Shown: positions 6,879-27,717 of the stretch, in pieces
Position numbering within the stretch: the stretch's first letter is position 1
How the letters are laid out: each line of letters begins with the position of its first letter
NCBI GenBank assembly: GCA_017545185.1
Contig: JAFWQJ010000082.1
Coordinates: 1 to 62,815, forward strand
DNA length: 62,815 nucleotides
DNA from: Oscillospiraceae bacterium
GTDB lineage: Bacteria; Bacillota; Clostridia; Oscillospirales; Ruminococcaceae
Direction of reading: 5' to 3'
The notes under the pieces: model-generated
Databases searched by the model: none
What the model was told of the DNA's origin: nothing
Seen by the model: the letters and a program-made list of their open reading frames with translations, nothing else
Program-made: the position numbers and the translations under genes

Positions 6879-6907
6879 TTGACAAATAAATGTAATTCAT
6901 GTAAAAT
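6879..6907 (+). promoter_or_regulatory. Sigma-A promoter for the clostripain-family gene
   Basis: TTGACA (6879-6884) and TAAAAT (6902-6907) are separated by 17 bases. A strong AGGAGG (6930-6935) precedes the ATG at 6944. The 124-base gap after sbcC holds only this promoter. Confidence 0.8.
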
Positions 6908-6943
6908 AGTATCAGAATCTTGCAAACTTAGGAGGATTGCAGT

Positions 6944-10493: not shown

Positions 10494-10514
10494 AAGCCTT
10501 CGGAAAGGAGCATT

Positions 10515-10784
10515 ATGCTGAAGTATGTACTCATTGCGTTTGCAGCCATCAGCCTGCTGACCTTTGTCAGCTACGGGCTTGATAAGCACGCTGCAAAGCA
10601 GAAAACATGGCGCGTGCCGGAGCGCAGGCTGCTGCTGTTCGGATTTGCCGGCGGCGCCGCCGGTGCGCTGCTCGGCATGCAGATCTTTCACCACAAGACG
10701 CGCAAGCCGCGGTTCTGGGTCGTCAACATTCTCGGGCTGCTCTGGCAGATCGCGCTCTGTGTGTATCTGCTGCTGAACAAATAA
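10515..10784 (+). CDS. DUF1294 small membrane protein
   Basis: This 89-residue protein has three hydrophobic stretches and the DUF1294 hallmarks: an N-terminal helix, then SYGLDKHAAKQKTWRVPE, then a Gly/Ala-rich helix and a conserved H-K-T-R-K-P-x-F turn before the last helix. The family is common in Firmicutes and has no established function. AAAGGAG precedes the start. It is the last plus-strand gene before the convergent GGGtGRT operon. Confidence 0.85.
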   Translation: MLKYVLIAFAAISLLTFVSYGLDKHAAKQKTWRVPERRLLLFGFAGGAAGALLGMQIFHHKTRKPRFWVVNILGLLWQIALCVYLLLNK

Positions 10785-10826
10785 AACGCATCGCCCGGGC
10801 ACGCTTTTTCCTGAACAAACAGAAAT

Positions 10827-10854
10827 CCCCGGCAGACCGCAAAATCTGCCGGGG
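10827..10854. terminator. Bidirectional hairpin between convergent operons
   Basis: CCCCGGCAGA (10827-10836) pairs with TCTGCCGGGG (10845-10854) around an 8-base loop. It lies between the DUF1294 gene and the convergent GGGtGRT gene. The minus side reads into a T-rich run. Confidence 0.75.
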
Positions 10855-10887
10855 TTCGTATACTTACGTATTTGCGTTGATCTGCTA

Positions 10888-11886
10888 TTACTTCATTGCT
10901 TCCTCGACTGCAACTGCGCAAGCAACTGTTGCACCAACCATCGGGTTGTTGCCCATACCGATCAGACCCATCATCTCAACGTGAGCCGGAACGGAGGAAG
11001 AACCTGCGAACTGCGCATCGGAGTGCATTCTGCCCATGGTATCGGTCATGCCGTAGGAAGCAGGGCCGGCTGCCATGTTGTCCGGATGCAGGGTACGGCC
11101 GGTACCGCCGCCGGAAGCGACAGAGAAGTACTTTTTACCTGCATCGGTGCGCTCCTTCTTATAGGTGCCGGCGACCGGATGCTGGAAGCGGGTCGGGTTC
11201 GTGGAGTTGCCGGTGATCGAAACATCGACGTTTTCCTTCCACATGATCGCAACGCCCTCGACGACATCGTTTGCGCCGTAGCAGTTGACCTTTGCGCGCA
11301 GGCCGTCGGAGTAAGCCTTGCGGAAGACTTCCTTGACCTCGCCGGTCTGATAGTTCATCTCGGTCTCAACATAAGTAAAGCCGTTGATTCTTGCGATGAT
11401 CTGTGCAGCGTCCTTGCCGAGGCCGTTCAGGATAACACGGAGCGGCTTCTTGCGGACCTTGTTTGCCTTTTCTGCAATACCGATCGCGCCCTCAGCAGCC
11501 GCGAAGGACTCGTGGCCTGCGAGGAATGCGAAGCACTCGGTCTCCTCCTCAAGAAGCATCTTGCCGAGGTTGCCGTGGCCGAGGCCGACCTTTCTCTGGT
11601 CAGCAACGGAGCCCGGGATGCAGAATGCCTGCAGACCCTCGCCGATCGCGGCAGCAGCGTCAGCAGCTCTGGTGCAGCCCTTCTTGATTGCGATCGCGCA
11701 GCCGACGGTATAAGCCCACTTTGCGTTCTCGAAGCAGATCGGCTGAATGCCCTCGACCAGCTTGTAGATATCCAGACCCTTTGCCTTGCAGACATCTGCG
11801 CACTCCTCGATCGAGTTGATGCCGTATTCCTTGATCACAGCGAGGATCTGCTTCTCGCGTCTCTCGTAAGATTCAAATAATGCCAT
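10888..11886 (-). CDS. GGGtGRT protein
   Basis: This 332-residue protein is a clear member of the GGGtGRT family, named for the motif seen here as SGGGTGRTLHP near residue 255. Other conserved features are a Gly-rich stretch around VGLGHGNLG, the NSTNPTRFQHP segment and a C-terminus ending near GMGNNPMVGATVA. Members are widespread in anaerobic Clostridia and are almost always next to a NifU-like scaffold, as here 13 bases downstream of one. The biochemical role is not established; the pairing points to Fe-S cluster handling or an electron-transfer enzyme. The gene is second in a two-gene minus-strand operon. Confidence 0.93.
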   Translation of the reverse strand: MALFESYERREKQILAVIKEYGINSIEECADVCKAKGLDIYKLVEGIQPICFENAKWAYTVGCAIAIKKGCTRAADAAAAIGEGLQAFCIPGSVADQRKVGLGHGNLGKMLLEEETECFAFLAGHESFAAAEGAIGIAEKANKVRKKPLRVILNGLGKDAAQIIARINGFTYVETEMNYQTGEVKEVFRKAYSDGLRAKVNCYGANDVVEGVAIMWKENVDVSITGNSTNPTRFQHPVAGTYKKERTDAGKKYFSVASGGGTGRTLHPDNMAAGPASYGMTDTMGRMHSDAQFAGSSSVPAHVEMMGLIGMGNNPMVGATVACAVAVEEAMK

Positions 11887-12835: not shown

Positions 12836-13516
12836 ATGAACGCAAAAATCGCACTGGTCGAGGACGAACCGGATATCCGGAAGATGCTGCGGAGCTTTCT
12901 GGAAGGCAAGGGCTGCACGGTCAGCGAGGCGGCAGACGGTCACGCGGCGGAAAAGCTGCTCGCGGAGGAAACCTTTGACCTGATCTTAATGGATCTGATG
13001 CTGCCCGGCATCAGCGGGGAGCAGCTGATCGCGTCGCTGCGGCGGGATTCGGATACGCCGGTCATTGTGATCTCGGCGAAGTCCATGCTGGAAACGCGCC
13101 TTGCGGTGCTGCGCCTCGGTGCGGATGACTACATCTTAAAGCCGTTTGATCTGAACGAGGTGCTTGTCCGCATGGAGGTCGTGCTCCGGCGGGCGGGACG
13201 GGAAAAGCTCCCGGAGATGCTCCGCGTCGGCAGCCTGACGCTTTATCCGGCGGAAAACCGCGTCTGCTGGGCGGATGCGCCGCTTTCGCTGACGGCAAAG
13301 GAATTTCAGCTTCTGCTGCTGTTTATGGAGTATCCGCAGAAGGTGTACTCCAAGGCGAATCTGTACGAATCCGTCTGGAACGAGGAATATTTCTGCGAGG
13401 ACAACACGGTCAGCGTGCATGTCAGCAATCTTCGCGCGAAGCTGAAAAAGGCGTCCGGCCGCGATCTGATTGAGACGGTCTGGGGCATCGGCTACCGGAT
13501 GAAGGGGGACGCATGA
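12836..13516 (+). CDS. OmpR/PhoB-family response regulator
   Basis: This 226-residue regulator has a receiver domain followed by a winged-helix DNA-binding domain. The acidic pocket is at residues 9-11, the phospho-acceptor Asp at 53 in LILMDLMLPG, and the conserved Lys is in VISAKS near 82. The effector domain begins near residue 128 and ends with the HVSNLRAKL recognition helix and a WGIGYR wing. It overlaps the kinase gene by four bases. The exporter genes follow directly, so it most likely controls them in response to an antimicrobial or envelope signal; that link is inferred from context and from the repeat at 14517-14534. Confidence 0.93.
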   Translation: MNAKIALVEDEPDIRKMLRSFLEGKGCTVSEAADGHAAEKLLAEETFDLILMDLMLPGISGEQLIASLRRDSDTPVIVISAKSMLETRLAVLRLGADDYILKPFDLNEVLVRMEVVLRRAGREKLPEMLRVGSLTLYPAENRVCWADAPLSLTAKEFQLLLLFMEYPQKVYSKANLYESVWNEEYFCEDNTVSVHVSNLRAKLKKASGRDLIETVWGIGYRMKGDA

Positions 13517-14430
13517 CAGGGTATATCATTGCGGGGATCCTGCTGGCTGTCTGCACCGTGCTGATCATCCGGCTGGTCATCCTCCGGCGGGAGATCCGTC
13601 TGCTGAAGGACGAGCTGACGCGCAATCTTGACCCGGAATACAACCGGCAGATCACGGTCACGCTGCTTGACCGCGGGCTGAACAGCCTTGCCGCGGAGAT
13701 CAACCGATCGCTGGATTATCAGCGGCGGCTGAAGCGCGATGCGGTGCGGGCGGAAAACGATCTCAGGCAGTCTGTCTCGGACATTGCGCATGACCTGCGC
13801 ACGCCGATGACGGTCATCAAGGGCAATCTGCAGCTTCTGACGCAGGAGGAGCAGCTCTCGCCGGGCGGCAAAGAGCATCTGGCGATCTGCTGCGAAAAGG
13901 CGGATGTGCTGAAAGATATGGCGGATGCGTTCTTTGAGCTCTCCGTGCTGGAAAGCGACGATGCCGCCGCAGAGCTCCGCACGGTCAATCTGACAAAGTT
14001 GCTGATGCAGTTCCTTGCCGACAGCGAGGCCGCGATCCGGCTGCACGGTCTGGAGCCGGAGATTGTTCTGCCGGAAAAGACGCTCAGCATCAAAGCAGAC
14101 GAGCAGATGCTCCTGCGGATGCTCGGCAATGTGCTGAACAATATCTTAAAGTATGCAAAGGACACGTTCCGGCTGGAAGCGAAGCAGGAGGGCGCGTGCT
14201 GTACGGTTTCGTTCTCGAACACGGTTCCGGCGGAGCAGATGCCCGACCCGGCGCGGATGTTCCTGCGGAGCTACCGTGCGGATGCGTCCCGCAGCGGCGG
14301 CGGCGCGGGTCTGGGGCTGTTTATCGTGCGGCTGCTTGCGGAAAAGCAGAATGCGCAGGTCAGTGCGTTCGCGGAGGATAATATCCTGACGCTGCAGATG
14401 CAGTTTCCGCTTGCGGATGCGGTGCATTGA
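13513..14430 (+). CDS. Sensor histidine kinase, small intramembrane-sensing type
   Basis: This 305-residue kinase has one strong N-terminal helix (residues 3-25), a short linker, and then the catalytic core with no visible extracytoplasmic sensor. The H-box is IAHDLRTPMT with His at 93. The ATP-binding domain shows an N-box (GNVLNNILKYA) and a G-box (GGGAGLGLFIV). Kinases without a sensor domain next to an ABC exporter often detect the state of the transporter or the membrane. The ATG overlaps the regulator stop (ATGA). A terminator hairpin follows. Confidence 0.92.
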   Translation: MTGYIIAGILLAVCTVLIIRLVILRREIRLLKDELTRNLDPEYNRQITVTLLDRGLNSLAAEINRSLDYQRRLKRDAVRAENDLRQSVSDIAHDLRTPMTVIKGNLQLLTQEEQLSPGGKEHLAICCEKADVLKDMADAFFELSVLESDDAAAELRTVNLTKLLMQFLADSEAAIRLHGLEPEIVLPEKTLSIKADEQMLLRMLGNVLNNILKYAKDTFRLEAKQEGACCTVSFSNTVPAEQMPDPARMFLRSYRADASRSGGGAGLGLFIVRLLAEKQNAQVSAFAEDNILTLQMQFPLADAVH

Positions 14431-14440
14431 CCGGAATAAC

Positions 14441-14485
14441 AGGGGATTCCTGCAGGCGGACAGTACGCCGGGGGATCCCTTTTTT
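14441..14485 (+). terminator. Intrinsic terminator after the kinase gene
   Basis: An outer stem AGGGGAT/ATCCCTT and an inner GGCG/CGCC stem around GACAGTA are followed by TTTTTT. It separates the kinase from the exporter operon, which has its own promoter. Confidence 0.7.
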
Positions 14486-14516
14486 ATACCAAAATGCAGC
14501 AATATCCTTCGTTAAA

Positions 14517-14563
14517 TGTGAACAAATTGTAAACTTACGGAATCTTAAAGGATTCTTTATACT
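14517..14563 (+). promoter_or_regulatory. Exporter promoter with adjacent tandem repeat (candidate response-regulator operator)
   Basis: TGTGAAC (14517-14523) and TGTAAAC (14528-14534) are direct repeats with 11-base spacing, typical of OmpR/PhoB-type boxes. They abut a weak -35 (TTACGG, 14535-14540), which is 17 bases from a -10 TATACT (14558-14563). A poor -35 flush with a tandem repeat is the arrangement of an activated promoter. The regulator encoded at 12836 is the obvious candidate, but this is inference. Confidence 0.6.
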
Positions 14564-14619
14564 TTTCCTTTATCATGAAATCAGCAGGAACAAATCCGAC
14601 ATGCAAAGGAGGAACTGAT

Positions 14620-15576
14620 ATGTCAGAAATCGTGATCGAAGCAAAGGAGCTGACCAAGCAGTACAAGAAGCAGAAAGCGGTTGACAGCGTCAGCTTTCAG
14701 ATCAGAAAGGGCATGATCTGCGGACTGATCGGGCCGAACGGCGCCGGCAAGACCACGATCATGAAAATGCTAGGCGGACTGGTGCTCCCGACCGGCGGCA
14801 GCTTCTCGCTGTTCGGCGGCAGCACGGAGGAGGCGCTCTGTCATGCGCGTTCCCGCATGAGCTTCATGATCGAAACGCCCTACGCCAAAGAGGAAATGTC
14901 CGCGCGGGAGAATCTCGAAAAGCTGCGTCTGCAAAAGGGCATCCCGAACCCGAAGCGCGTGGACGAGGTGTTGGAGCTGGTCGGGCTTGCAGATACCGGC
15001 AAAAAGCAGGTGCGCAAATTCTCGCTCGGAATGCGGCAGCGGCTCGGGCTTGCGGGCGCGATGCTCTCGAAGCCGGAGATTATGGTGCTGGACGAGCCGG
15101 TCAACGGTCTTGACCCCGAGGGCATCATTGAGATCCGCGAGATGCTGCGGCGGTTCAATGAGGAGGAAAACATCACCATTCTGATCTCCTCGCATATCCT
15201 TGCGGAGCTTTCACAGCTCTGCACGGATTATATGTTCATCCGCAAGGGGACGATCCGGCAGTTTTCGTCCGCGGAGGAGCTGCACAAGATCTGCGGCGAA
15301 TACTACCACATCCACACCGACAACGACGCGGTCGCGCTGGCCGTCCTGCAAAATAAGCTCGGCATTGAGAACTGTGATGTGCTGAAGGACGGCAGTCTCC
15401 GGTTGTTTGAGCGGCTGAACGAGCTGCCGCTGATCTCGAAAACACTGTATGAAAACGGCCTTGTTCCGGTGACGCTCCATATTCATGAGGCTGATCTGGA
15501 ATCGTATTACATGAAACTGGTAGGTGATGACAATGCTGAACATTCTGAAAGCGATGCTGCGGCAGACAAAGCGTGA
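14620..15576 (+). CDS. ABC transporter ATP-binding protein
   Basis: This 318-residue ATPase has Walker A GPNGAGKTT near residue 38, signature FSLGMRQRLGLAGA near 135, and Walker B IMVLDEPVNGLDP near 157. The C-terminal hundred residues are the extension common in the BcrA/CcmA drug-export group. ATG 14620 was chosen because AGGAGG (14607-14612) is seven bases upstream; an in-frame extension to 14575 would place the ribosome site inside the gene. The next gene starts inside its 3' end. It should energise the two permeases that follow. Confidence 0.93.
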   Translation: MSEIVIEAKELTKQYKKQKAVDSVSFQIRKGMICGLIGPNGAGKTTIMKMLGGLVLPTGGSFSLFGGSTEEALCHARSRMSFMIETPYAKEEMSARENLEKLRLQKGIPNPKRVDEVLELVGLADTGKKQVRKFSLGMRQRLGLAGAMLSKPEIMVLDEPVNGLDPEGIIEIREMLRRFNEEENITILISSHILAELSQLCTDYMFIRKGTIRQFSSAEELHKICGEYYHIHTDNDAVALAVLQNKLGIENCDVLKDGSLRLFERLNELPLISKTLYENGLVPVTLHIHEADLESYYMKLVGDDNAEHSESDAAADKA

Positions 15577-16312
15577 CAAGCTCCTGCTGATCGGTCTGTT
15601 TTATTATTTGCTCATGTCCGTCGAGATGCTGGTGCAAAGCGGTGCGGACTGGAATACGCACGGCAGCACAGTTTCCGGTATCATAGCGAATACGCTGCTG
15701 ATCATGACGACGGTCGTGGTCGGGGCATTCACCAGCAGGATCTGCGGCAGCGATCTCCGCGATAAGACCGCCAATTATGAGATCCTGTTCGGCAAGCACC
15801 GTTCGGAAGTCTATTTCGGCAGATTTTTCGCCGCACTGACCGTATCGGTCGCTGTGATCGCGGGTGTCGTACTGATCCCGGTGCTGTTCCTTACGGCGAA
15901 AAACGGCTGGGGCGGGGCGCTCCCCGCGCAGACTGCATGGGTGATCTTCGGGCTGCTGCTTGTGATGATCTTCCGGTGCGTTTGCTTCTTTACCGCGCTG
16001 ACCTTCCTCTGCGGGAACGATATCGTGCCGCTGACTGTCGCGCTGATCGGAACCATGTGCGTCGCATTATGTGTGTTTCTGCTCGGTGCTGCGGACATTC
16101 ATCTGTCATGGCAGACGACCTTCTCCGATATCATGACGCTGCTCGATTTTTCCAACACGACAAGCGGCTATGCGGACGGCAAAGACTACCTCATTTATAA
16201 GGTCGCGCTGTCCGGCAAAACGGCGCTGCGGATGCTCTGCACCAGTCTCGGCTTCGGGCTGTTCTGGCTGTTCGGCGGATTCGCGCTGTTCCGCAGAAAA
16301 GATATTCCGTAA
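15533..16312 (+). CDS. ABC-2 type transporter permease
   Basis: This permease of about 259 residues has six predicted membrane segments, beginning with LLLIGLFYYLLMSVEMLV and ending with a LGFGLFWLFGGFALF helix and a basic RRKDIP tail. It overlaps the ATPase gene by 44 bases. Alternative in-frame starts are GTG 15524 and ATG 15527; ATG 15533 has the best spacing from GGTAGG. It has the usual size for the permeases of small bacitracin/lantibiotic-type exporters. Substrate is unknown. Confidence 0.85.
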   Translation: MLNILKAMLRQTKRDKLLLIGLFYYLLMSVEMLVQSGADWNTHGSTVSGIIANTLLIMTTVVVGAFTSRICGSDLRDKTANYEILFGKHRSEVYFGRFFAALTVSVAVIAGVVLIPVLFLTAKNGWGGALPAQTAWVIFGLLLVMIFRCVCFFTALTFLCGNDIVPLTVALIGTMCVALCVFLLGAADIHLSWQTTFSDIMTLLDFSNTTSGYADGKDYLIYKVALSGKTALRMLCTSLGFGLFWLFGGFALFRRKDIP

Positions 16313-16324
16313 GGGGGTGCTGTC

Positions 16325-17128
16325 ATGCTTGATATCATACGCGGACAGATCCGCATTTTTCTGCGCGCAAGGACGCTGCATCTTTGCAATCTTTCGCTCG
16401 CAGCCGTATTCTTTCTCATGATGTTTCTGGACAGCGGCGGAACCGGTGAACTGCGGAAGCCGGTGACGGACTATATTGCAGGTTCGCTTCCGGTGTTTGC
16501 GGGCTTTGCATCAATTTCCGCCGGCCTGACGGTCGGCATGGTCAGCGGTGCCGATTTCACGGACAAGACGATCAATCATGAGCTGACCTCCGGCAGAAGC
16601 CGTGCGGTGTCATTTTTCGGGCGCGCGATCCCGGCACTGATCGGAGCGCCGCTGACCGCGCTGGCCGTGACCGCTTTGCCGCTGCTGCTCTACGGAATGC
16701 TGTTCGGCTTCGGGGATGTTGTGCCGGTATCTGAGGTCGTCCGGCGGCTTCTGCTGATGCTGTTCCCGAACATCCGGATGACGGCGTTCTGTCTGATGAC
16801 CGTTTTCATCCTGAAAAATCCGACAGCTTCGATTTCGTTTTCTACGCTGGTGATGCCAGCATTCGCGCTTGCACAGGTCGCGGATACTTCCGTGCCGATG
16901 ATCGGCAAGCTGGCGGCGCATCCGTTCCTGCTGGCGCCGTCAGGGCTTTCCCGTCTCGGCAAATTTGACAGCTGGTATACCTACGACCTGAGCCTGAATC
17001 AGTATTTCACTTATGACCCCGCGCTGCCCGCATCAACGGTCTGGCCGATCATCGTCTGCGCGGTCATCATGACGGCAGTGTATCTGCTGATCGGCTATCA
17101 CTTTTTCCATGTGGACGACATGGCGTGA
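16325..17128 (+). CDS. ABC-2 type transporter permease, second subunit
   Basis: This 267-residue membrane protein has six hydrophobic segments. The motif SGADFTDKTINHELTSGRSR resembles the matching loop of the first permease (CGSDLRDKTANYEILFGKHR), so the two are paralogues that probably form a heterodimer. It starts 13 bases after the first permease, following a GGGGGTG site, and ends 16 bases before the S41-type gene. With the ATPase it forms an export or self-immunity pump. Confidence 0.87.
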   Translation: MLDIIRGQIRIFLRARTLHLCNLSLAAVFFLMMFLDSGGTGELRKPVTDYIAGSLPVFAGFASISAGLTVGMVSGADFTDKTINHELTSGRSRAVSFFGRAIPALIGAPLTALAVTALPLLLYGMLFGFGDVVPVSEVVRRLLLMLFPNIRMTAFCLMTVFILKNPTASISFSTLVMPAFALAQVADTSVPMIGKLAAHPFLLAPSGLSRLGKFDSWYTYDLSLNQYFTYDPALPASTVWPIIVCAVIMTAVYLLIGYHFFHVDDMA

Positions 17129-17143
17129 AAGGAGGCGGCAAAC

Positions 17144-18847
17144 ATGAAGCTTATGGATATCACTGCGGTGACTGCTTGTGTCGCCGCCTGCGGGGGACTG
17201 TGCTGGCTGGCGGGCTATGCCGACCGCGTCAAAAGCACAAAATGGAAAATATTTTGGCTGATCGTTCCGCTGCTTGCGATCGGCGTTTCCAAGCACGGCC
17301 TGACCGTCTCCCTGCTGCCGCTGTATCTCGGTGCGGTGATCGCGGCACTCGGATTCTTCACGGAGCGTTCCGGCATCCGCCGCAGACTGGCGGCAGCGGG
17401 CGCGGCCTGTATGCTGCTGAGTGTGCCGGTCTGCCTGCTGAATCCGCGGTACCGTGCTAAGGATTATCTCGGTGACTTCGAGAAGCTTTCCGCCTGTATG
17501 CGGGAGCATTATGTGCTGACTGACCACAAGGGCATTGACTGGGACGCGCTCTATGCGAAGTATCAGCCGAAATTCGCGGAGATCGACCGCACACAGGACG
17601 CGGGAGCCAATCTGCTGACATGGGGCGCATTCTGCGGAGAATTTCACGACGGTCATGTCGGCTATACCTACAGCATCAAAGAGGACATGGCACCTGCAAA
17701 TCAGGCGATCCGCGAGGCACTCGGCCATGATTACGGCCTGTCGCTGATGCGCTGCGCAGACGGCAGCTTCGCCGCGGTACATACCGACGAAAGCCTTGCG
17801 GAATACGGCATCCGCAACGGTACCGTCATCACGGCATGGGACGGCAGATCGCCTGACGAAGTCAGCAAAGCGTCACCGCTCTATGACGTCAATTTTTTCG
17901 TATACGATGAAGAAAAGGAAGAACCGACGCTCATCATGAGCAGCTATCCCGACATGGACAACGAGATCTTCTGGAGCGGCGTGCTCTGTGCGGGCGTGGG
18001 CGGGGACAGCGTGACCGTGACCTATCTCGATGAGAACGGCGCGGAGCAGACAGCCGTCCTTTCGCAGTGCGGCGATTATCTCGACCGCCTGACCGGCACG
18101 GTGAAAACGGTCGGTCAGAGCGTGGAAACAGGCAATCTGATGTGGAAGCGCATCGGCAGGACAACAGCCTGCCTGCGCATCAAGGGCATGAGCTTTGACA
18201 TGAAGTCCTACAACTCTGCGGAGGATGATGCCTACGACGAAATGAAAAACGAGATCCGGCAGCAGATCCTCGAATATCAGCAGGACGGGGTCAAGGACGT
18301 CATCATCGACCTGCGCGGCAATGAGGGCGGCTCTCCGCACATGGTCAACGGCGTGACGGCGATGTTCGCGCCGAAAGGGGAGCACTACTGCCTGACGAAC
18401 TGCGTCTGGGACGAGCAGAACCACTGCTGGGCAAAGGACGCGTCCGGGCGGTATGTCAAGGGCAATGACATCGTGTATCAGGGGGAGCAGCTCCTCGGGG
18501 ACGGCCGCATCATCGTGCTGGTCGATTCCGCGACGGTCAGCGCGGGCGACATCATGACAAAGGAAATGGAAGGGCTTGAGAATGTGGCCGTGATCGGCTT
18601 CACGGAGCCGAACGGCTCGTCGCAGGCAGTCGGCATGAAGGCGGGGAAATGCGGCACGCTCTCGTTCTCGAACTGCGTCGTGCTCGATGAAAACGGCGAT
18701 ATTGCGATCGACTCCGGTATCGACCGTCAGAGCGGCGATGGGGACGGCGTGGAGATCATCCCGTTTGACGGAGAAGCGATCCGCGCGCTGTTTGACGAAG
18801 GCCGCGATTACCTCATGGACAAGGCACTCGAAATGCTGGAACGATAA
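17144..18847 (+). CDS. Membrane-anchored S41-family (C-terminal processing-like) peptidase
   Basis: This 567-residue protein has three or four N-terminal hydrophobic segments (residues 5-110), a spacer with a possible PDZ-like part near 225, and a tail-specific-protease domain from about 335. Recognisable pieces are VIIDLRGNEGGS and LVDSATVSAGD; the second Ser of that motif is the expected nucleophile. The stretch where classical CtpA enzymes carry the catalytic Lys reads EPNGSSQAVG, so it may use the Ser/His-type arrangement or be inactive. It lies 16 bases after the permease, within the exporter operon, so it may process the exported peptide or a sensor; that is inference. A strong terminator follows. 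Confidence 0.8.
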   Translation: MKLMDITAVTACVAACGGLCWLAGYADRVKSTKWKIFWLIVPLLAIGVSKHGLTVSLLPLYLGAVIAALGFFTERSGIRRRLAAAGAACMLLSVPVCLLNPRYRAKDYLGDFEKLSACMREHYVLTDHKGIDWDALYAKYQPKFAEIDRTQDAGANLLTWGAFCGEFHDGHVGYTYSIKEDMAPANQAIREALGHDYGLSLMRCADGSFAAVHTDESLAEYGIRNGTVITAWDGRSPDEVSKASPLYDVNFFVYDEEKEEPTLIMSSYPDMDNEIFWSGVLCAGVGGDSVTVTYLDENGAEQTAVLSQCGDYLDRLTGTVKTVGQSVETGNLMWKRIGRTTACLRIKGMSFDMKSYNSAEDDAYDEMKNEIRQQILEYQQDGVKDVIIDLRGNEGGSPHMVNGVTAMFAPKGEHYCLTNCVWDEQNHCWAKDASGRYVKGNDIVYQGEQLLGDGRIIVLVDSATVSAGDIMTKEMEGLENVAVIGFTEPNGSSQAVGMKAGKCGTLSFSNCVVLDENGDIAIDSGIDRQSGDGDGVEIIPFDGEAIRALFDEGRDYLMDKALEMLER

Positions 18848-18862
18848 GCGGAATCATACCCC

Positions 18863-18896
18863 AAAAAACGGTGTGCCTTTTTGCACACCGTTTTTT
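18863..18896 (+). terminator. Strong intrinsic terminator after the exporter/S41 operon
   Basis: AAAAAACGGTGTGC (18863-18876) pairs perfectly with GCACACCGTTTTTT (18883-18896) around a 6-base loop. It isolates the exporter operon from the pilus locus. Confidence 0.9.
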
Positions 18897-19034: not shown

Positions 19035-19063
19035 TTGACAAATGGCACGGAATGTGCTAAAAT
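19035..19063 (+). promoter_or_regulatory. Promoter of the pilus operon
   Basis: TTGACA (19035-19040), 17 bases, then TAAAAT (19058-19063) preceded by TGTGC. The AT-rich stretch between 18900 and 19118 also holds a small imperfect hairpin around 18982-19008; no other feature is evident there. Confidence 0.8.
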
Positions 19064-19118: not shown

Positions 19119-19733
19119 ATGCATGGCATGGATTATTACGGAATGTATACTCCGAACAGACAGATTCCCGCTGGAAAAAGGAGGCGGCAGGCGCCGATGG
19201 ACAGCGGCAGGGCAGAAGCAAAACAAAGCAAAAAACAGCGTTCTCCGATGAATCCGATCCAGATCTTTCTGCTGAATGTGCTGATCGTCACGGCGGCTGT
19301 GTGGCTGCTTTTCGGGTTTGTATTCGGGATCCGGTCGGCACCGAACGGCGATATGTCGCCCAATATCAAAGCGGGCGATCTGCTGCTGTATTACAGACTG
19401 GAAAAAAGCTGTCAGGCACAGGACGTTGTCGTGCTGCGCAAGAACGGTACGGTGTATGTCGGACGGGTCGTTGCAGTCGGCGGCGATACGGTCGAGATCA
19501 CAGATGATGAAACGCTTGTCATCAACGGAAACACGATGACGGAAACGAATATTTATACCCGGACGCCGCGCTATGAGGGCTTTGCGGAATATCCGCTGAC
19601 GGCGGCGCCGGATTCATACTTTGTTCTGGCGGATAACCGCGCAGGCTGTGAGGACAGCCGCTACTACGGCACCGTGCAGAAATCCGAGGTGCTCGGCAAG
19701 GTTATCACCGTCATCCGCCGGAATCACCTGTAA
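19119..19733 (+). CDS. SipA-like, catalytically inactive signal peptidase homologue (pilus assembly)
   Basis: This 204-residue protein has the type I signal peptidase fold: a basic cytoplasmic N-terminus, one membrane helix (residues 48-70) and the box regions. The catalytic Ser, expected just before the Met of the S-M-x-P motif, is Asp78 in NGDMSP. The catalytic Lys, expected before the R-V-V of the VGGD box, is Gly115 in VYVGRVVAVGGD. Streptococcal pilus protein SipA has the same Asp and Gly replacements, and the 37-residue distance between them matches as I recall it. A sortase and pilins follow directly, so a chaperone role in pilin polymerisation is likely and peptidase activity unlikely. 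The first gene of the operon; an in-frame ATG at 19128 is an alternative start. Confidence 0.82.
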   Translation: MHGMDYYGMYTPNRQIPAGKRRRQAPMDSGRAEAKQSKKQRSPMNPIQIFLLNVLIVTAAVWLLFGFVFGIRSAPNGDMSPNIKAGDLLLYYRLEKSCQAQDVVVLRKNGTVYVGRVVAVGGDTVEITDDETLVINGNTMTETNIYTRTPRYEGFAEYPLTAAPDSYFVLADNRAGCEDSRYYGTVQKSEVLGKVITVIRRNHL

Positions 19734-19745
19734 GGCGGTGCAGTG

Positions 19746-21026
19746 ATGAAGCTGGCATACCGGGCCGCATCGCTGGCCAACCGTCTGCTGATGACAACGG
19801 TCGCGGTGCTTGCTGCCGTACTGACTGCATACGGCCTTTATGTGCTGTATGATATTTTCTACATCAGCGAGAATGCATTTGTTTCGCGCGATCTGCTGAA
19901 ATACCGCCCCGGTCTGACGATCACGGATGCGGAAAAGGAACAGGAGAGCTTTGCGGAGCTGCGCGCGATCAATCCCGATACCGTCGGCTGGATCGAGCTG
20001 TTCGGGACGCATATCAATTATCCGGTCGTGCAGGGCAGGGATGATCTGGAATATCTGAACAAGGATATTTACGGCAATTCCACAATGTCCGGTTCCATTT
20101 ATCTTGCTGCCGACAACAGCAGCGGGTTTAACGACTGGTACAATCTGATCTACGGGCACCACATGGACAACGGTGCCATGTTCGGCGACATTGACCGCTA
20201 TCTCGATCAGGAATACTTCGATGCGCACCGGCACGGGATCCTTCAGACGCCTGACGGGATCTACGATATCAACGTGCTCGCGTGTATTTCTACGGATTCC
20301 TACGAGGGCACGGTCTACCGCATGGAGCCGGATGCTGCGGAAGCGTATCCTGTCCTGCGTGCATACATTGAAGAACATGCCGCGCAGATCGCGGAAATGC
20401 CGGAGGAGCTCGGCGGCGATACGATGCTGCTCGGACTCTCGACCTGCACGGATGCCGTCACAAACGGACGGATCGTGCTGTTTGCTGCGGCGGAAAAGCG
20501 CGATCCGGATGCGCCGGTCCCCGAAGCCGTACTGGCTGCGGAGGCGGAAAAGCAGCAGGCGCAGAAAAAGGATCCGCCGAAGCTGCTGGCGGCCGTCGGG
20601 CACATGACTGACAGCGCACACTGGGCGCTGCTCAATCTGGTCTGCGTGCTGCTGACATTCCTGACGTTTCTGCCGCTGTTTTCGCTGCGGCGGAAATACC
20701 GGCAGCTGCCCTATGCCAAACGAACGGTCAAGGCGCTGACGGACAGCGGAAAGCATGACATCCGCACGAATGACATTGTGCGCGGACTGCGCAGATTCAT
20801 CCGGAAATGCCGGATCGGAATCGCTGCGGAGGCGGGGCTGCTGATCCTGTCAGCGGTCGTGTTCCTGTTGACGGAAAACCTGACAAAGCAGGCGGTCATC
20901 TGCGACGGCATGACCGGCTGGATGCTTCTGATTGCAGCCGCCGCACTTCTGACAGACTTCATCTGCTTCCGGTATCGCGGCGAACGTCCCGATCCGCCGG
21001 AGCAGACCGATCCTGAAGCAGCCTGA
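19746..21026 (+). CDS. Class B sortase with extra C-terminal membrane domain
   Basis: This 426-residue sortase is longer than the usual 220-280. A membrane anchor at residues 14-40 leads to the sortase barrel with His138 in YGHH, Cys234 in LSTC and Arg242 in NGRIVL. After residue 285 come three more hydrophobic helices (about 290-315, 357-375, 386-402) separated by basic linkers. Class B pilus sortases join pilin subunits, which fits the location between the SipA-like gene and the tip adhesin. ATG 19746 was preferred to GTG 19743. The gene starts 12 bases after its neighbour and ends 30 bases before the adhesin. Confidence 0.9.
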   Translation: MKLAYRAASLANRLLMTTVAVLAAVLTAYGLYVLYDIFYISENAFVSRDLLKYRPGLTITDAEKEQESFAELRAINPDTVGWIELFGTHINYPVVQGRDDLEYLNKDIYGNSTMSGSIYLAADNSSGFNDWYNLIYGHHMDNGAMFGDIDRYLDQEYFDAHRHGILQTPDGIYDINVLACISTDSYEGTVYRMEPDAAEAYPVLRAYIEEHAAQIAEMPEELGGDTMLLGLSTCTDAVTNGRIVLFAAAEKRDPDAPVPEAVLAAEAEKQQAQKKDPPKLLAAVGHMTDSAHWALLNLVCVLLTFLTFLPLFSLRRKYRQLPYAKRTVKALTDSGKHDIRTNDIVRGLRRFIRKCRIGIAAEAGLLILSAVVFLLTENLTKQAVICDGMTGWMLLIAAAALLTDFICFRYRGERPDPPEQTDPEAA

Positions 21027-21056: not shown

Positions 21057-24000
21057 ATGAACAAACGCATTTATGCGCTGCTTGCAGCAGTGCTGATGAC
21101 AATGGCCGTGACGGTCGGGATCCTTCCGCTTTCCGTTTTTGCGGAAACGGAAAAGCAGATCCTGACGGAACAGCGCCTGATTATGACGCCGGACGGCGGA
21201 CTTGTCCAGCCGGAGGTGATCAGCACGCGCACGATCAAGAGCGGAGCCAAGGGCGGAACCAAGAGCAGCGTCAAAAGCGGCGCGCCGGCGAAGGACGGCA
21301 GCGACAGCAAGGACGGCTCCATACCGCCGCAGATCGTTCTGGAGGGCGCACTGCCGACGGATATCACGGCAGAAGCAGTCAGCGTCGATCCGATGGATTA
21401 TATCCGGCCGACCGAAAGCACGATCCTCTGCGCGTATGACATTTCGCTCTATTGCGCGGAAAAGGAATACGAGCCGGAGGACACGGCGATTTCCGTTTCG
21501 GTTTCCAATGATATGATCGCGGAAGCCGAACATCCGGTCGTGGTTCATATTCAGGATGACCCCGCCGCTCCGCTGGAGCTGATCGAGGATTACACGCTCA
21601 GCGGCAGAACGATCACGTTCAGCACAGAGCACTTCTCCGTGTTCATGATCGTGGATGTGGGAGAAAACGGCACGGACGACATTCTCGTGACGCCGCGTGT
21701 CTATTACTACTTCCTCAGTCCCGGCACGGAGGGTACCGGCGGCGAATATACCTCGACGCTGTACCCGATCGAAACGGACGAGCAGGATACCCCCGGAAGA
21801 AATCCGGTCTGGATGCAGATCGTCAAGAACGGCGATTCGCTCAATGAGGTCCCGATCCCGCCGGCACAGTCCGGAAAGAGCTTCCTCGGCTGGTATTACG
21901 TGTGGCTTTCTGAGGATCAGGAACCGCCGCCGGAGCAGCCGACAGGCACGGAAACATTCACTTACGCCTGGCCGGATTCCGCATCGCTGCAGCGTGCAGA
22001 ATTCGGACGGCCGCTTTCCGTCGTCGAGGAGGAGGACGGCGCCTGCTACTATCTGGCGCCGCTGTACCGCAATTACCGCATTCTCGTGTTCCATGAGTAT
22101 GACGGCTCCGTCATCACACGGAAGCTGGTCGTGCTCGGCACTGATGAGGGCGAACTGCAGGGTACGGTGCTCATCAGTGATGTCAAGGCGAAGAACCTGG
22201 ACGATACCCGAACCTTCTATATGTGGAAGATCCAGGAGCGGACACAGGAGCAGCAGCTCAAGGTCATTGACGAGCAGGGCAATTTCAAGGATACCTATTA
22301 TACCGTCAAGCCGACGAATTTTGACGAGGGCAAGATCGAGATCGACGTGATCCCGGAATTCATGGATTCGCACTGGGTCAATTTCAACACGGTTGATTCC
22401 CGCGCATCGTTCTTAAAGCCTGCGCTGATCCAGAAGAATAACGGCAAGGTCCTGATCACGACGGCGCTGCTCTCGCAGAAGATTCCGACGCTGGCGAACC
22501 ACACCTTTGAAGGCTGGTATCTCGATTCCGGCTATAACACGCAGCTCTGTGACGGCACCGGTACGATGGTGCCGGAGTATGCAAACGGCTACGAGATCCA
22601 TCAGGATACGATGATCTACGCCAAGTGGGCGTATAACGGTGACCCGGTGCCGTACCGGTATCTGTTCTGGCAGCAGCTCCCGACCGACAGCCCCGGCATG
22701 GCGGACAGCCAGAAGCATTACAGCTTCCTGCGTTCGGAAACAAAAACCGGTGTTGCGGGCGCCGGCCACTTCACAGAGGAGCCGACGGTTCCGGCCATAG
22801 CTGGCTTTACCTTCCGGAAGGACGCCCCGCAGGAAATCCTTGAGGACGGTACCACAGTCGTGAATATTTATTATGACCGTGAGCCGAGGACGATTCGCTT
22901 TTATACGCATGATCAGTATACGGAATCCACAGCCAGTAATGCAACATACGGATTTGTCAACGGAATGTATGTTCCGTTGACAAAAGGCCAGACAAGATAT
23001 AATGTCATGACCAGTCATACATATACGCAGTTGATAACCGGCACACAAGGAGCGACTTATAATAATCTTTATCATATTTCAAATCAAACGTATGAATCAT
23101 ACGATTATAATGTAAGATATAATAATGGTAAATTTCAATATCGCAGATACAATTTCGGCAATTGGAGAGATGTTAATGAACCGTTATTTACTCGTTCCGC
23201 CGGAAGTGATTACAGCGGAACAGTATATACCAGAAGCGGGAGCAATTATTCTCCAACAGAAGCCTATTCTGATTCCGGGACGTATTATGGATATGATTCC
23301 AATGGGTATTATGTCCTCCTAGACATAACAGCCTATACAGTTAATACGGACACCTGGTATGACCCTGACGGCAATGAATATACAGGAACAAGATATACAA
23401 AGACCACGAGTAATTACAACTGGTATCTTTATACTGAGTTCAACGGCCTTTACGGCCAGACCTTCAAGGAAGCCGATGTAACATGGCCAACGGATTATAC
23501 ATGGCATGAAGGGTCTTCAACCGGCAAAACAATCACATTCCTGGATGCGTTCTTGGAACAGAATGAAGTCCTTGAATTATATGGAGATACTGCAAGCACA
23601 TCCGGTGCAACAATCCGTTTCTGGAAACAGGATTTGTCAATGGAAGCGGATGATTTCACGATTGCGAATACTGTCAGAGCCAATGTCGGATACAACGGAG
23701 CCAATTTTGAATTAACGAATAAATACGAAGGCTTCACACTTTATCAGTACCGCACGAACAATGGCAACTGGCAGAATGCATCGGTCGGAGGAAACGTAAC
23801 AATCTATAATTCGACGACGCTTGACATTCGGTTTAAGAGAAACACCTACGACATTCTGTTCCTCGACAAGAACGACGACCCCGATCATCCGTATGCGAAG
23901 ATTGACAACGTTCCGTTCGGTGCAGACCTTTCACAGTATGCCTCACAGGCGCTTCCGCCGAATGAGTCCGGCCTGACGTACACCGGCTGGCGCTTCAATT

Positions 24001-25268
24001 TTGAGGATGCAACGATGCCTGCTTACGACCTTGCGATCTACGCAGACCGTGAAATGGCAAAATACAATGTCACACTGGATCTGGACGGCGGTTCGTTCCC
24101 GTGGAGCTTCTACTCCAACACCGCACAGCATGACGATCCCGACTGGGAATGGACGTATTCCACATACTTCAAGGTGGATGCCCCGCCCTACCGCATCGAG
24201 CCGTATGACATCGTAGAGCGCAAGTACAAGCCGGATCCGAACGGACAGTTTGTTTACATCTACGTGACGCGGAGTTCACCGCATAATGATCCCGGTACCG
24301 GCGAGGAAATGCCGCGTCTGGCGCTGTATGTTGACAAAAACAGCGAATTTGCGCGGCGGTATGCAGACAGCCTTGTGAAAGACGATGACGGCAATATCCA
24401 GTATTATACCCAGATGCAGTGGGCAGACGGCGAATACAAGCTCGAGGGCTGGTATGAGGTCGATCCCGATACCGGCGAGCTGAAACCCGAGCCGTTCAAC
24501 TTCATGAGGACGATTGACCATGACGTCACGCTGCGTGCGGTCTGGATCAATCTCGGTGCAAAGTTCAAGGTCATGTATCATACGATGCAGACGGTTGACG
24601 GCGTGGATGTCAGCGGTACGCTGAACAATCCCGCGCATTACGGCGCTGTAACGGTTGAAAATCTGCTTGAAAAGGCTGATTACAGCCTGCTCGGTGCGCC
24701 GGACAACATTACGCCGGGCTATGTGTTTGAGTACTGGCTGGTCGGCAATACGCGCTACGGTCCCGGCGATACGTTCAAGATTCTTTCCAATCTTGCGGAC
24801 AGCGAGCAGACCATTCACATTCAGGCGGTTTACGCGCCGAGGGCACAGTCCGTTCACAACCAGAAGCTGACAAACCTCTGGCTGCACAGAAATGACGGTA
24901 CCGATCCGGAGCCTGAAACCGACATCACCAAGCTGAATTTCCTTCAGGTCAATGAAATGGTGGATCTCGGACAGTATTCTCCGTCGTTCCGCCGTGAGGG
25001 CTATGAGCTGCTCGGCTGGGCGAGAACCCCGGATGCGGTCGTTCCGGATTTCAGCACGATCGACAAGGTCGGCGCGGATCTGAATGACATTGACGGCAAG
25101 ACGAATCACCTGTATGCCGTCTGGAAGGCGTATCCCGCACCGACAATGTATCAGGACAACGCAGTGCCGTACGGCATCCTTGTGATCGCCGTCAGCGCAG
25201 CGGTTGTATTGATGATCCTGGTTCGCAGGCGAAAGGGGGTGGTCGTCCATGACGATGCACCGCTCTGA
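21057..25268 (+). CDS. Large pilus tip adhesin with InlB-type repeats and non-LPXTG sorting signal
   Basis: This 1403-residue secreted protein starts with a signal peptide (cleavage probably after SVFA, near residue 30) and ends with a wall-sorting signal: VPYG at 1370-1373, a 15-residue hydrophobic helix and RRRKG. Several InlB/Listeria-Bacteroides-type repeats are visible, marked by F-x-G-W-Y and Y-A-x-W (HTFEGWYLDSGYN, MIYAKWAY, LYAVWKAY). The N-terminal part ends in FSTEHFSVFMIV, a common surface-protein module. A Tyr/Asn/Ser-rich central stretch, about residues 605-925, is encoded by markedly AT-richer DNA. It is most likely the adhesive tip subunit joined to the pilus by the class B sortase. 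Ligand unknown. Confidence 0.85.
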   Translation: MNKRIYALLAAVLMTMAVTVGILPLSVFAETEKQILTEQRLIMTPDGGLVQPEVISTRTIKSGAKGGTKSSVKSGAPAKDGSDSKDGSIPPQIVLEGALPTDITAEAVSVDPMDYIRPTESTILCAYDISLYCAEKEYEPEDTAISVSVSNDMIAEAEHPVVVHIQDDPAAPLELIEDYTLSGRTITFSTEHFSVFMIVDVGENGTDDILVTPRVYYYFLSPGTEGTGGEYTSTLYPIETDEQDTPGRNPVWMQIVKNGDSLNEVPIPPAQSGKSFLGWYYVWLSEDQEPPPEQPTGTETFTYAWPDSASLQRAEFGRPLSVVEEEDGACYYLAPLYRNYRILVFHEYDGSVITRKLVVLGTDEGELQGTVLISDVKAKNLDDTRTFYMWKIQERTQEQQLKVIDEQGNFKDTYYTVKPTNFDEGKIEIDVIPEFMDSHWVNFNTVDSRASFLKPALIQKNNGKVLITTALLSQKIPTLANHTFEGWYLDSGYNTQLCDGTGTMVPEYANGYEIHQDTMIYAKWAYNGDPVPYRYLFWQQLPTDSPGMADSQKHYSFLRSETKTGVAGAGHFTEEPTVPAIAGFTFRKDAPQEILEDGTTVVNIYYDREPRTIRFYTHDQYTESTASNATYGFVNGMYVPLTKGQTRYNVMTSHTYTQLITGTQGATYNNLYHISNQTYESYDYNVRYNNGKFQYRRYNFGNWRDVNEPLFTRSAGSDYSGTVYTRSGSNYSPTEAYSDSGTYYGYDSNGYYVLLDITAYTVNTDTWYDPDGNEYTGTRYTKTTSNYNWYLYTEFNGLYGQTFKEADVTWPTDYTWHEGSSTGKTITFLDAFLEQNEVLELYGDTASTSGATIRFWKQDLSMEADDFTIANTVRANVGYNGANFELTNKYEGFTLYQYRTNNGNWQNASVGGNVTIYNSTTLDIRFKRNTYDILFLDKNDDPDHPYAKIDNVPFGADLSQYASQALPPNESGLTYTGWRFNFEDATMPAYDLAIYADREMAKYNVTLDLDGGSFPWSFYSNTAQHDDPDWEWTYSTYFKVDAPPYRIEPYDIVERKYKPDPNGQFVYIYVTRSSPHNDPGTGEEMPRLALYVDKNSEFARRYADSLVKDDDGNIQYYTQMQWADGEYKLEGWYEVDPDTGELKPEPFNFMRTIDHDVTLRAVWINLGAKFKVMYHTMQTVDGVDVSGTLNNPAHYGAVTVENLLEKADYSLLGAPDNITPGYVFEYWLVGNTRYGPGDTFKILSNLADSEQTIHIQAVYAPRAQSVHNQKLTNLWLHRNDGTDPEPETDITKLNFLQVNEMVDLGQYSPSFRREGYELLGWARTPDAVVPDFSTIDKVGADLNDIDGKTNHLYAVWKAYPAPTMYQDNAVPYGILVIAVSAAVVLMILVRRRKGVVVHDDAPL

Positions 25269-25378
25269 ACGCCGGCGTCGCCGGGGAGGTTCCAGAGACA
25301 AACCGCCCTGAGCGGGAAACACCCGCAAAAACAAACCCGTTTGAAAAAACAGAATTCAAAAACGAAAGGATGTTTATT

Positions 25379-26740
25379 ATGAAGGCTATTTTCAAGAAGA
25401 CGGCTGCTCTTGCAGCTTCCGCAATTCTGACAGCTACTCTGGCTGTTCCGGCTATGAGCGCTTTCGCAGACGGCGAATCCTGGATCGAGCTCCCGGCGCA
25501 GAACGGACTCGTTGATTTTGCTGCAACAGACGGCCCGTATTTCAACAAGTCGATCACGCTCCACAATGACGATCCTTCTGTCAAGGTCTATGTTCCGGCT
25601 GTTACCTACACCTATGCAATCGCAGGCGTTGAGGCTTCCGGCAAGGTGACTGACAAGAACGACAGCAGCGTGAACACCAAAATGGGTCCGGAAGGCGGTC
25701 TTACCCTGGTCAGCGATACATTCCAGTTCTCTGAGAAGGATACCGCTAAGGAACTGACCGATGCTGACGGGGACGGCAAGGGCGAGGTCACAATCACCGA
25801 AAAGGTCAAGGTCAGCTACGATGAATCCAAGTTCACGGCAGCAGGCATCTACCGCTATGAGATCACCGAAACCGCTGATTATGCAGATTACGGCATCACC
25901 CGTTCCGCTGACAGCGTGACCCGTCTGGTCGATGTCTATGTTGAGCAGAATTCTGACGGAACCGGATTTAAAGTCTACGGCGCAGTTATGCTGTACGAGG
26001 TCCCGGGTGAAGCTGGCGTGACGATCTCCACTGAGAAGACGGACGGCTTTACCGATGCAGGTGAGAAAACCGGTACCAAGGAAGATGACGTTTTCACACC
26101 GACTACGGAGAAGAAAACCGATCCCACGGCGTATATTGCAGACCAGCTCTACACCTACAACTACACCGTGGAAAAGCTGATCCAGAACAGCCTGATCGGC
26201 GACGAAACCTTCCCGTTCACTGTTACCGTAAACGGTACAGACGGAAAGCAGTTCTTCAACTACTCCGATGCTGCTGCTGACAGCGCTGCTGCTGCAATCG
26301 CTGCTGCAACAACCAAGGGAACTGTCGGCACTGCTGACAGCGATGTCGAGCTGGCTGATAAGAAGTTCCTTGCACTGACGGCTGTTCCGGCCAATGCAAC
26401 GATCCTCGTTTCTGAAAAGAACACGCAGACTGCAACCTACACTGTGACTGTTGAAGACGGCACCAAGTCGGATCTGGCGGTTGATGCAACCACCATTTCC
26501 AAGGATCAGTCCTCCAAGTTCAGCGCAGCAGCTGCAATCTCCAACTATGCGGATGACAAGACCACTGAGCCGACCAAATCGCTGGGCGATACCACCTTCA
26601 CCAACAAGATGGTCAGCATTTCCCCGACCGGCGTCATCTTCATGATCGCACCGTTCGTGATCATGCTGGGCGCAGGCGCATTCCTGCTCGGACTGTTCAT
26701 GAAGAACAGAAAGAAGGACGCTGCGGAGAGCATTATCTGA
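25379..26740 (+). CDS. FctA-like backbone pilin (isopeptide-linkage domains)
   Basis: This 453-residue secreted protein has a signal peptide ending in MSAFA and a sorting signal with SPTG at 415-418, a 23-residue hydrophobic helix and a KNRKK tail. The two middle domains match the Spy0128/FctA pilin type, including AGIYRYEITE with the Glu expected to promote a Lys-Asn isopeptide bond, and YNYTVEKLI at the start of the second domain. Its tail differs from LPXTG and parallels the adhesin's VPYG, so both may suit the same class B sortase. ATG 25379 was chosen because GAAAGGA lies eight bases upstream. The 110-base gap before it contains GC-rich hairpins that could lower or raise expression relative to the adhesin. 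Confidence 0.88.
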   Translation: MKAIFKKTAALAASAILTATLAVPAMSAFADGESWIELPAQNGLVDFAATDGPYFNKSITLHNDDPSVKVYVPAVTYTYAIAGVEASGKVTDKNDSSVNTKMGPEGGLTLVSDTFQFSEKDTAKELTDADGDGKGEVTITEKVKVSYDESKFTAAGIYRYEITETADYADYGITRSADSVTRLVDVYVEQNSDGTGFKVYGAVMLYEVPGEAGVTISTEKTDGFTDAGEKTGTKEDDVFTPTTEKKTDPTAYIADQLYTYNYTVEKLIQNSLIGDETFPFTVTVNGTDGKQFFNYSDAAADSAAAAIAAATTKGTVGTADSDVELADKKFLALTAVPANATILVSEKNTQTATYTVTVEDGTKSDLAVDATTISKDQSSKFSAAAAISNYADDKTTEPTKSLGDTTFTNKMVSISPTGVIFMIAPFVIMLGAGAFLLGLFMKNRKKDAAESII

Positions 26741-26815: not shown

Positions 26816-26868
26816 AAAACCGCAGGCAATGCAGGGGGGAGTCTTTTTTGCAAAGGAGGTGTGCCGCT

Positions 26869-27717
26869 GTGCTGCGATCAAAAAGAATGCTGCTTGCAGC
26901 TGCTTTGCTGCTCATACTGTGCATCTGTATGGCTGTGCGGGCGGTTCACCGTGCAGGGATCCCGGAGCAGGAGCTGCCGGAGCTGACGCTTTCTGCGGAG
27001 CCGCAGCGGACGGAAACCGTCCCCGCAGTGACGGCGGCGCCGCCGGTCACAGCGCAGACTGCCGCGGAAACGACCGGAACAACCGGAACGACCGGAACGC
27101 TCCCGGTCCCCCATGCGGACGAGCCGGAGCTCCCGCAATGGAAATATGAGGAGCTGCGAAAGAATACGGATGATCTCGCGGCGCAGCTCGGTGATCTGGT
27201 CGGCTGGATTTTCATGGCCGATTCAGATATTGATTATCCGGTGATGCAGGGCAATGATAATTTCTATTACCTGTCCCATGCACCGGACGGGCGCCCCTAT
27301 CAGCTCGGCTCGATCATGCTGGATTACCGCAATGACCGCCGCTTTCAGGACGACGCAAGTATTTTATACGGACATAATATGGTAAGCGGAATGTTCGGGG
27401 ATATCCGGTCATTCCGGAATCAGAGCAGCTTTGACGCACACCGCTACGGCTGGCTGTTCACGCCGGATACCGTGTACCGCATTGATTTTTTTGCACTGGC
27501 CATTGTCAGCGGCTATGATACTGCGTATGATCTGCCGTGTGCGCAGAAGGATTTTCTGACGCGGATCCGTTCACAGGCGGAGTTTGATTCCGGCGCGGAG
27601 GTCGCGGCAGAGGACAGGCTCATTGCGCTGTCCACCTGTGCCGTCGGTGACCCCGCAGAATGCCGCGCCCTGTTTACCGGTGTGCTGCGGGAGCAGGGCG
27701 GCTCCGGCGGAGCATAA
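26869..27717 (+). CDS. Class B sortase, second copy (candidate wall-anchoring or housekeeping enzyme)
   Basis: This 282-residue sortase has an N-terminal membrane anchor (residues 7-24), a Thr/Pro/Ala-rich stalk (48-80) and the class B barrel with His169 in YGHN, Cys257 in LSTC and a downstream Arg near 266. The GTG start at 26869 follows AGGAGG (26854-26859) by nine bases; a TTG-initiated extension would contain the ribosome site. It lacks the extra C-terminal helices of the sortase at 19746. In pili with two sortases, one polymerises and the other attaches the fibre to peptidoglycan; which does what here cannot be told from sequence. Confidence 0.9.
   Translation: MLRSKRMLLAAALLLILCICMAVRAVHRAGIPEQELPELTLSAEPQRTETVPAVTAAPPVTAQTAAETTGTTGTTGTLPVPHADEPELPQWKYEELRKNTDDLAAQLGDLVGWIFMADSDIDYPVMQGNDNFYYLSHAPDGRPYQLGSIMLDYRNDRRFQDDASILYGHNMVSGMFGDIRSFRNQSSFDAHRYGWLFTPDTVYRIDFFALAIVSGYDTAYDLPCAQKDFLTRIRSQAEFDSGAEVAAEDRLIALSTCAVGDPAECRALFTGVLREQGGSGGA

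Follow-up and report, generated by a model that had tools for sequence, protein, structure and literature searches.

What can a protein with the fold of a type I signal peptidase contribute to a pilus operon once both residues of the catalytic pair are gone? The question is raised by an open reading frame (ORF, positions 19119–19733, forward strand) in contig JAFWQJ010000082.1 of an Oscillospiraceae bacterium (assembly GCA_017545185.1), a stretch of 62,815 nucleotides called the window below. Sequence, predicted structure, a reverse search and a tree all mark its product as a relative of SipA of Streptococcus pyogenes. Behind its gene follow those for a class B sortase (SrtB1), a surface protein of 1403 amino acids (aa), a pilin-like protein of 456 aa and another class B sortase (SrtB2). 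It is very likely that this clostridial SipA is a one-helix membrane protein that retains the fold of type I signal peptidases without their catalytic pair, does not cut, and serves as a non-enzymatic helper in the assembly of class-B-sortase pili. The mechanism of SipA and the reason why some pili need it are described as open questions in PMC4049620 and PMC7900414 (cited, like all papers here, from partial texts), and they become open to comparison through a large group of clostridial relatives in the same gene setting, in which the Asp/Gly pair drifts, the lysine is missing throughout and other residues stay constant.

Residues, fold and kinship with SipA

Translated without an inner stop, the ORF places Asp78 at the catalytic-Ser position and Gly115 at the catalytic-Lys position, as an earlier reading of the sequence alone (the sequence-only reading) had proposed, and a phmmer alignment pairs the two with the NDMSP and VGR segments of S. 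pyogenes SipA (PDB 4n31). The spacing of 37 residues, which that reading had given for SipA, is correct as well, since PMC4049620 names Asp48 and Gly85. In the nearest relative found, locus L115 of a metagenome-assembled genome (Oscillospiraceae bacterium isolate Tb.RUG.135), the protein is 88% identical and also has Asp/Gly; because L115 shares the pair and the gene appears conserved between the two (dN 0.062, dS 0.427, dN/dS approximately 0.145; NG86, 180 codons), Asp/Gly is not a sequence slip. The actual start is probably the ATG at 19197 (codon 27), favoured because close DNA similarity between the window and L115 begins only about there, and preceded by a Shine-Dalgarno match (AAAGGAGG/AAAGGGGG in the comparison with L115 DNA); residue numbers follow the longer ORF from 19119.

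Structure prediction, the check suggested by the sequence-only reading, gave a type I signal peptidase fold with SipA as its closest match, 4n31 ranking first and the truncated SipA structure 4k8w lower (PDB 4me8 being an Enterococcus faecalis signal peptidase). With S. pyogenes SipA/LepA (FCT-2/3/4; 4n31, 4k8w; PMC4049620, PMC7900414) the window protein shares the fold, a single N-terminal helix, Asp/Gly, a pilus operon with a class B sortase, and residues Gly70, Tyr92-Arg93 and Arg200, at 36–37% identity over the domain. It differs in having Tyr113 at SipA Lys83 and Ala171 at SipA Asn140, and its gene, unlike that of S. pyogenes SipA, heads the operon and precedes the sortase, in an operon with two class B sortases. 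With LepB/SpsB (S26A) it has the fold, the boxes and the retained cleft-loop residues in common, but not the Ser-Lys dyad. It scores over the cut-off of TIGR02227, the signal peptidase I model, while lacking both the Ser nucleophile and the Lys general base that characterise S26A; that a protein without the catalytic pair passes this curated model points to a naming error, since the SipA-like protein would be annotated as an active signal peptidase.

A tree of 103 rows (138 columns, dyad columns removed; unrooted, bootstrap not settled, one streptococcal sequence) places 72 lysine-less rows, one of them S. pyogenes SipA, on one side of a split and 31 Ser-Lys rows on the other (support 99/89), LepB/SpsB standing opposite the window protein. 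The placement of S. pyogenes SipA among the lysine-less rows is unsure: joining it to the window's subclade gives p 0.257 in the approximately unbiased (AU) test, by which a single shared origin of Asp/Gly in the two is neither demonstrated nor excluded.

Distribution, sortase linkage and family signature

Searches with the window protein covered 148 family, 295 order, 391 class and 398 phylum genomes, in overlapping samples that each included the window's genome (thresholds for relatives 1e-15 to 1e-19, counting matches whose residues were checked). Lysine-less genes occur in 10, 16, 13 and 3 of these genomes, respectively, and thus reach many clostridial families while remaining confined to a minority of genomes. 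They cannot be told from signal peptidases by score alone, a Ser-Lys protein (L094) reaching 83 bits, above some lysine-less rows. Among the named holders are Ruminococcus albus (strains KH2T6 and AR67), R. flavefaciens (XPD3002), Gemmiger gallinarum, Anaerobutyricum hallii (DSM 3353) and Lachnoanaerobaculum species, the last of which read Glu/Gly at the dyad positions; these genes suggest that some commensals of rumen and gut, among them R. albus, R. flavefaciens, Gemmiger and Anaerobutyricum, may build class-B-sortase pili.

The family is linked to class B sortases. In an aligned set of 46 proteins (the window and 45 relatives, with 16 of 41 places fetched from the family search), 37 lack the lysine and nine, those that happened to be fetched, have Ser-Lys. 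A class B sortase, called by phmmer at 40 bits or more to the window's two sortases, lies in the fetched stretch for 35/37 lysine-less rows, always within 2.9 kb of the gene and on its strand, versus 0/9 Ser-Lys rows; in one of the two lysine-less rows without it, the contig stops about 200 bases past the gene. A control by coordinates used 36 genomes chosen for holding a SipA-like gene, 29 of which have a class B sortase over the curated cut-off, and compared 109 S26 matches (E<=1e-5) with 102 sortase matches (E<=1e-10). Within 5 kb of a class B sortase lie 36 of 38 SipA-like genes versus two of 71 other S26 matches (Fisher p 5e-24, uncorrected for kinship between genomes). Those two are partial (66.6 and 26.5 bits), and two further ones lie at 5.0 kb (genome G951, just past the limit) and 6.9 kb.

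The sequence-only reading had also suggested looking for genomes where Asp and Gly co-occur next to sortases. A second scan, of titled contigs that are partly the same as before, gave 69 loci, none with the lysine: Asp/Gly in one frame in 54, D/A in 6, E/G in 4, D/C in 2, A/G and A/L in one each, and Asp and Gly on two broken frames in L180. The share of Asp is inflated by an Asp-Met pair in the scan's first pattern, while Gly is in no pattern. All loci but one (L183, cut short) have a same-strand class B sortase, the nearest at most 2.9 kb away.

That a SipA-like protein in Clostridia would widen the family stands as far as the relatives across the class are concerned, but novelty is reduced by C. 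perfringens, likewise of the Clostridia, for which PMC8088525 already describes a pilus operon with a class B sortase and a signal-peptidase homologue, termed signal peptidase there. By its description, SipW of C. perfringens (PMC7395162) resembles the window protein, being a specialised signal peptidase encoded in a surface-polymer operon, with srtB close by; it is reported to be needed for extracellular BsaA, srtB being dispensable for polymerisation. Among the matches listed and in the open-licence literature, no description of SipA-like pseudo-peptidases in Ruminococcaceae or Lachnospiraceae was found, nor an earlier one of the comparative lysine-less set with its residue signature.

Contrary to the sequence-only reading, Asp/Gly is no hallmark of the SipA type. 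In the 37 lysine-less rows the Ser position holds D 11, S 11, G 7, T 2, A 2, R 2, N 1 and E 1, and the Lys position G 22, R 9, A 3, S 2 and L 1, which rules the pair out as a family diagnostic; lysine loss alone holds throughout. Since the tree needs at minimum six changes for Asp at the Ser position and eleven for Gly at the Lys position versus one for the lysine, Asp/Gly is a common state rather than a family mark, and PMC4049620 reports that the SipA Asp is not conserved in other streptococci. Met79 (68/72) and Pro81 (70/72) are retained, and other positions separate the SipA-like from the Ser-Lys rows far better: in descending order Tyr92 (64/72 versus 2/31), Leu88 (64/72 versus 2/31; Gly in S. 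pyogenes SipA), Gly70 (67/72 versus 4/31), Arg200 (71/72 versus 6/31, with 25 Ser-Lys gaps), Arg201 (61/72 versus 2/31, 25 gaps), Leu133 (60/72 versus 4/31) and Arg93 (68/72 versus 8/31), with residues shared with the window protein somewhat favoured by retrieval of the rows through likeness to it.

In the predicted model, residues 70, 88 and 92 lie on strands 69–73 and 88–92, and residues 93, 200 and 201 directly after strands 88–92 and 191–199; Leu133 is the exception, off the sheet that carries the other six. The model's first, second and last strands would correspond to SipA strands 1, 2 and 10, which form a membrane-associated sheet (PMC4049620). As six of the seven best separating positions are on or next to these strands, the membrane-facing sheet, rather than the dead active site, suggests itself as the working surface. 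Tentatively, and with less than even confidence, SipA-like pseudo-peptidases with this working surface could be seen as a regular partner of class-B-sortase pili, mainly clostridial, with the streptococcal version as one offshoot. If so, either the sortase or the end of the pilin embedded in the membrane would be held there, and the sheet would do the job of the lid and C-terminal helix in class C pilin sortases.

Function and competing readings

According to PMC4049620, SipA is found in pilus operons using a class B sortase, is required for pilin polymerisation and tolerates mutation of its Asp and of one cleft residue; the authors observed neither peptidase activity nor any binding of SipA to pilin, sortase or peptides. 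Because the clostridial operon matches the SipA system in its parts and their pairing, the SipA-like protein is read here as a membrane-bound, non-cutting assembly factor for SrtB1. Anchored by its single helix with the fold outside the membrane, it would present or position the pilin by its signal-peptide or sorting-signal end, SrtB1 would then join the pilins, and SrtB2 would anchor the fibre to the wall. While the gene, its residues, the predicted fold, the kinship with SipA, the operon and the family link to class B sortases were established directly, we infer the loss of activity, the need for the protein in polymerisation, its binding partner and the roles of both sortases. Lingering peptidase activity, a sortase system other than a pilus, and decay are all less likely than such an assembly factor.

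It is very unlikely that the protein is a pilus-dedicated signal peptidase still cutting via Asp78 or another residue pair. The cleft-loop residues retained in SipA-like rows and the TIGR02227 label would fit such an enzyme, as would the SipA homologues of S. suis and S. agalactiae, which appear with an intact dyad (PMC4049620), and locus L193 of G951, where the SipA-like gene has a Ser-Lys S26 neighbour at a distance of about 3 kb. Yet the Ser position is varied over the 72 SipA-like rows (at least D, S, G, A, T and R), and Gly171, present in 31/31 Ser-Lys rows, is Ala in the window protein and Gly in only 24/72. An alternative Ser-Lys dyad, the finding that the sequence-only reading had named as telling against itself, was looked for by conservation over the same 72 rows and is unsupported: no Lys column rises above 46/72, and the only Ser in 72/72 is S180 of the DSR box, common to 29/31 Ser-Lys rows. 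An active site elsewhere in the protein thus finds no support in residue conservation, and in S. pyogenes SipA mutation of the Asp left polymerisation unaffected, with no peptidase activity found (PMC4049620).

Very unlikely is a class-B-sortase surface polymer or anchoring system other than a pilus, with the SipA-like protein aiding sortase substrates generally. In its favour, the literature consulted, in the parts available, documents no such pili for these organisms, 60 of the 102 class B sortase matches in the 36 genomes stand apart from SipA-like genes, and the window pilin is divergent: searches for PF12892 FctA or the TIGR03065 sorting domain gave no match in it, and its identity as a pilin rests on the sorting signal and isopeptide-type residues, with no family match over cut-off. 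Its C-terminus reads I-S-P-T-G, followed by a hydrophobic stretch and a basic tail. Against the non-pilus reading, Lys269, Glu349 and Asn412, which we take to be the pattern of an intramolecular isopeptide domain, are invariant in 25/25 pilins of a hand-picked alignment (the window and 24 relatives). Lys223, kept in 24/25, is a candidate acceptor lysine, and YPK was found in 0/25. Pilin families do appear among eight pilins scanned (the window and seven relatives), where DUF7601 is passed by six, FctA (Spy0128-like) by three (L040, L098 and L043), and TIGR03786 (strep_pil_rpt) and a QVPTGV-class sortase B sorting signal by one each. SrtB1, moreover, is close to a known pilin polymerase: its best solved relatives are 4y4q (134.7 bits) and, second, 3psq (124.7 bits; Spy0129, the pilin polymerase of S. 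pyogenes, GAS), the next PDB match falling to 85 bits. It is a probable pilin polymerase on this similarity.

A former pilus signal peptidase, now decaying or functionless, is extremely improbable, for the loss of active-site residues and two broken-looking relatives (L180 in two frames, L183 cut short) are set against the low dN/dS versus L115, the better preservation versus L115 of the SipA-like protein and SrtB1 (92% identity) than of the surface protein (70%) and pilin (43%), and the fact that lysine-less proteins persist in several families and orders, where their fold signature and their place in the operon are conserved.

The operon, its surroundings and side observations

Coordinates are collected in the table. 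The claim that the SipA-like gene leads a sortase-pilus operon is borne out: the gene is read as head of the operon because of the terminator-like repeat and promoter match upstream of it and the spacing of 9 bases to SrtB1. The repeat was read directly from the sequence and is absent from the list of the consensus scan; the promoter match is the best of 13 such sites in the region, where 7.4 are expected from shuffles, and a similar TTGAC stretch lies upstream of the gene in L115. The gradient of identity to L115 is what constraint on the machinery, with freedom to vary in the exposed parts, would be expected to produce.

Table. Features of the sortase-pilus operon and its leader, in window coordinates
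Feature	Position	Strand	Remarks
Intrinsic-terminator-like perfect 14-base inverted repeat, 6-base loop, T run	18863..18896	+	behind upstream S41-protease gene
Sigma-70-type promoter match TTGACA-17-TAAAAT, 11/12, TG before second hexamer	19035..19063	+	consensus scan
SipA-like, dyad-less signal-peptidase-fold membrane protein	19119..19733	+	probable start 19197
Codon 78, Asp at catalytic-Ser position, context N-G-D-M-S-P	19350..19352	+	translation and alignments
Codons 92-93, Tyr-Arg, frequent in SipA-like rows, rare in Ser-Lys rows	19392..19397	+	alignment of 103 rows
Codon 115, Gly at catalytic-Lys position, context Y-V-G-R-V-V-A-V-G-G-D	19461..19463	+	translation and alignments
Class B sortase SrtB1, C-terminal hydrophobic extension	19743..21026	+	TIGR03064 170.7 bits, over cut-off
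1403-aa surface protein, C-terminal hydrophobic segment and basic tail	21057..25268	+	weak Listeria-Bacteroides-repeat matches, all under cut-offs
456-aa probable major pilin, I-S-P-T-G sorting signal, Lys269/Glu349/Asn412, Lys223, no YPKN	25370..26740	+	DUF7601 23.1 bits, cut-off 27
Second class B sortase SrtB2, TTG start	26848..27717	+	TIGR03064 133.7 bits, under 153.75 cut-off

Residues 294–412 of SrtB1 match the NCBIfam FILTED domain at 37.5 bits (cut-off 40), and a homologue of 775 aa is encoded at L084. PMC7900414 describes a transmembrane region at the C-terminus of class C pilin sortases and reports that none was seen in the class B pilin sortase of S. pyogenes. SrtB2, with Lmo2181 as its best PDB match, is perhaps the wall-anchoring sortase, and the 1403-aa surface protein a possible tip or adhesin subunit. 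Just upstream (12836–18847, forward strand) are genes for a response regulator, a sensor kinase and an ABC transporter with two permease genes, named from their translations, and for an S41-type protease.

Elsewhere, in L193, the lysine-less SipA-like gene and the Ser-Lys S26 gene (6899–7468 and 10440–10997) enclose a 975-aa surface-type protein, with a class B sortase beyond. The window's own genome has, on contig C18 (L001), three consecutive S26 genes in one frame, all Ser-Lys, with a stop codon between each pair; a 468-aa frame spanning two S26 matches on that contig is interrupted in translation by a stop between them, and the two are read as tandem genes, not as a fusion. On contig C25 of G090, which has no S26 match, four matches to class B sortases cluster on a single strand within 5 kb (86116–90953). 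Viral contigs searched for SipA-like relatives gave none. Plasmid records (40 of 72 listed) are labelled signal or leader peptidase or name no gene, and phage records among the matches listed are unannotated; one of the latter kind of source, MT836522.1 (Bacteriophage sp., human faeces), encodes at 8027–8440 a stretch 39% identical to the SipA-like protein (E 2e-20); either the record is a bacterial contig gone astray or the phage carries a copy of the gene, both being possible.
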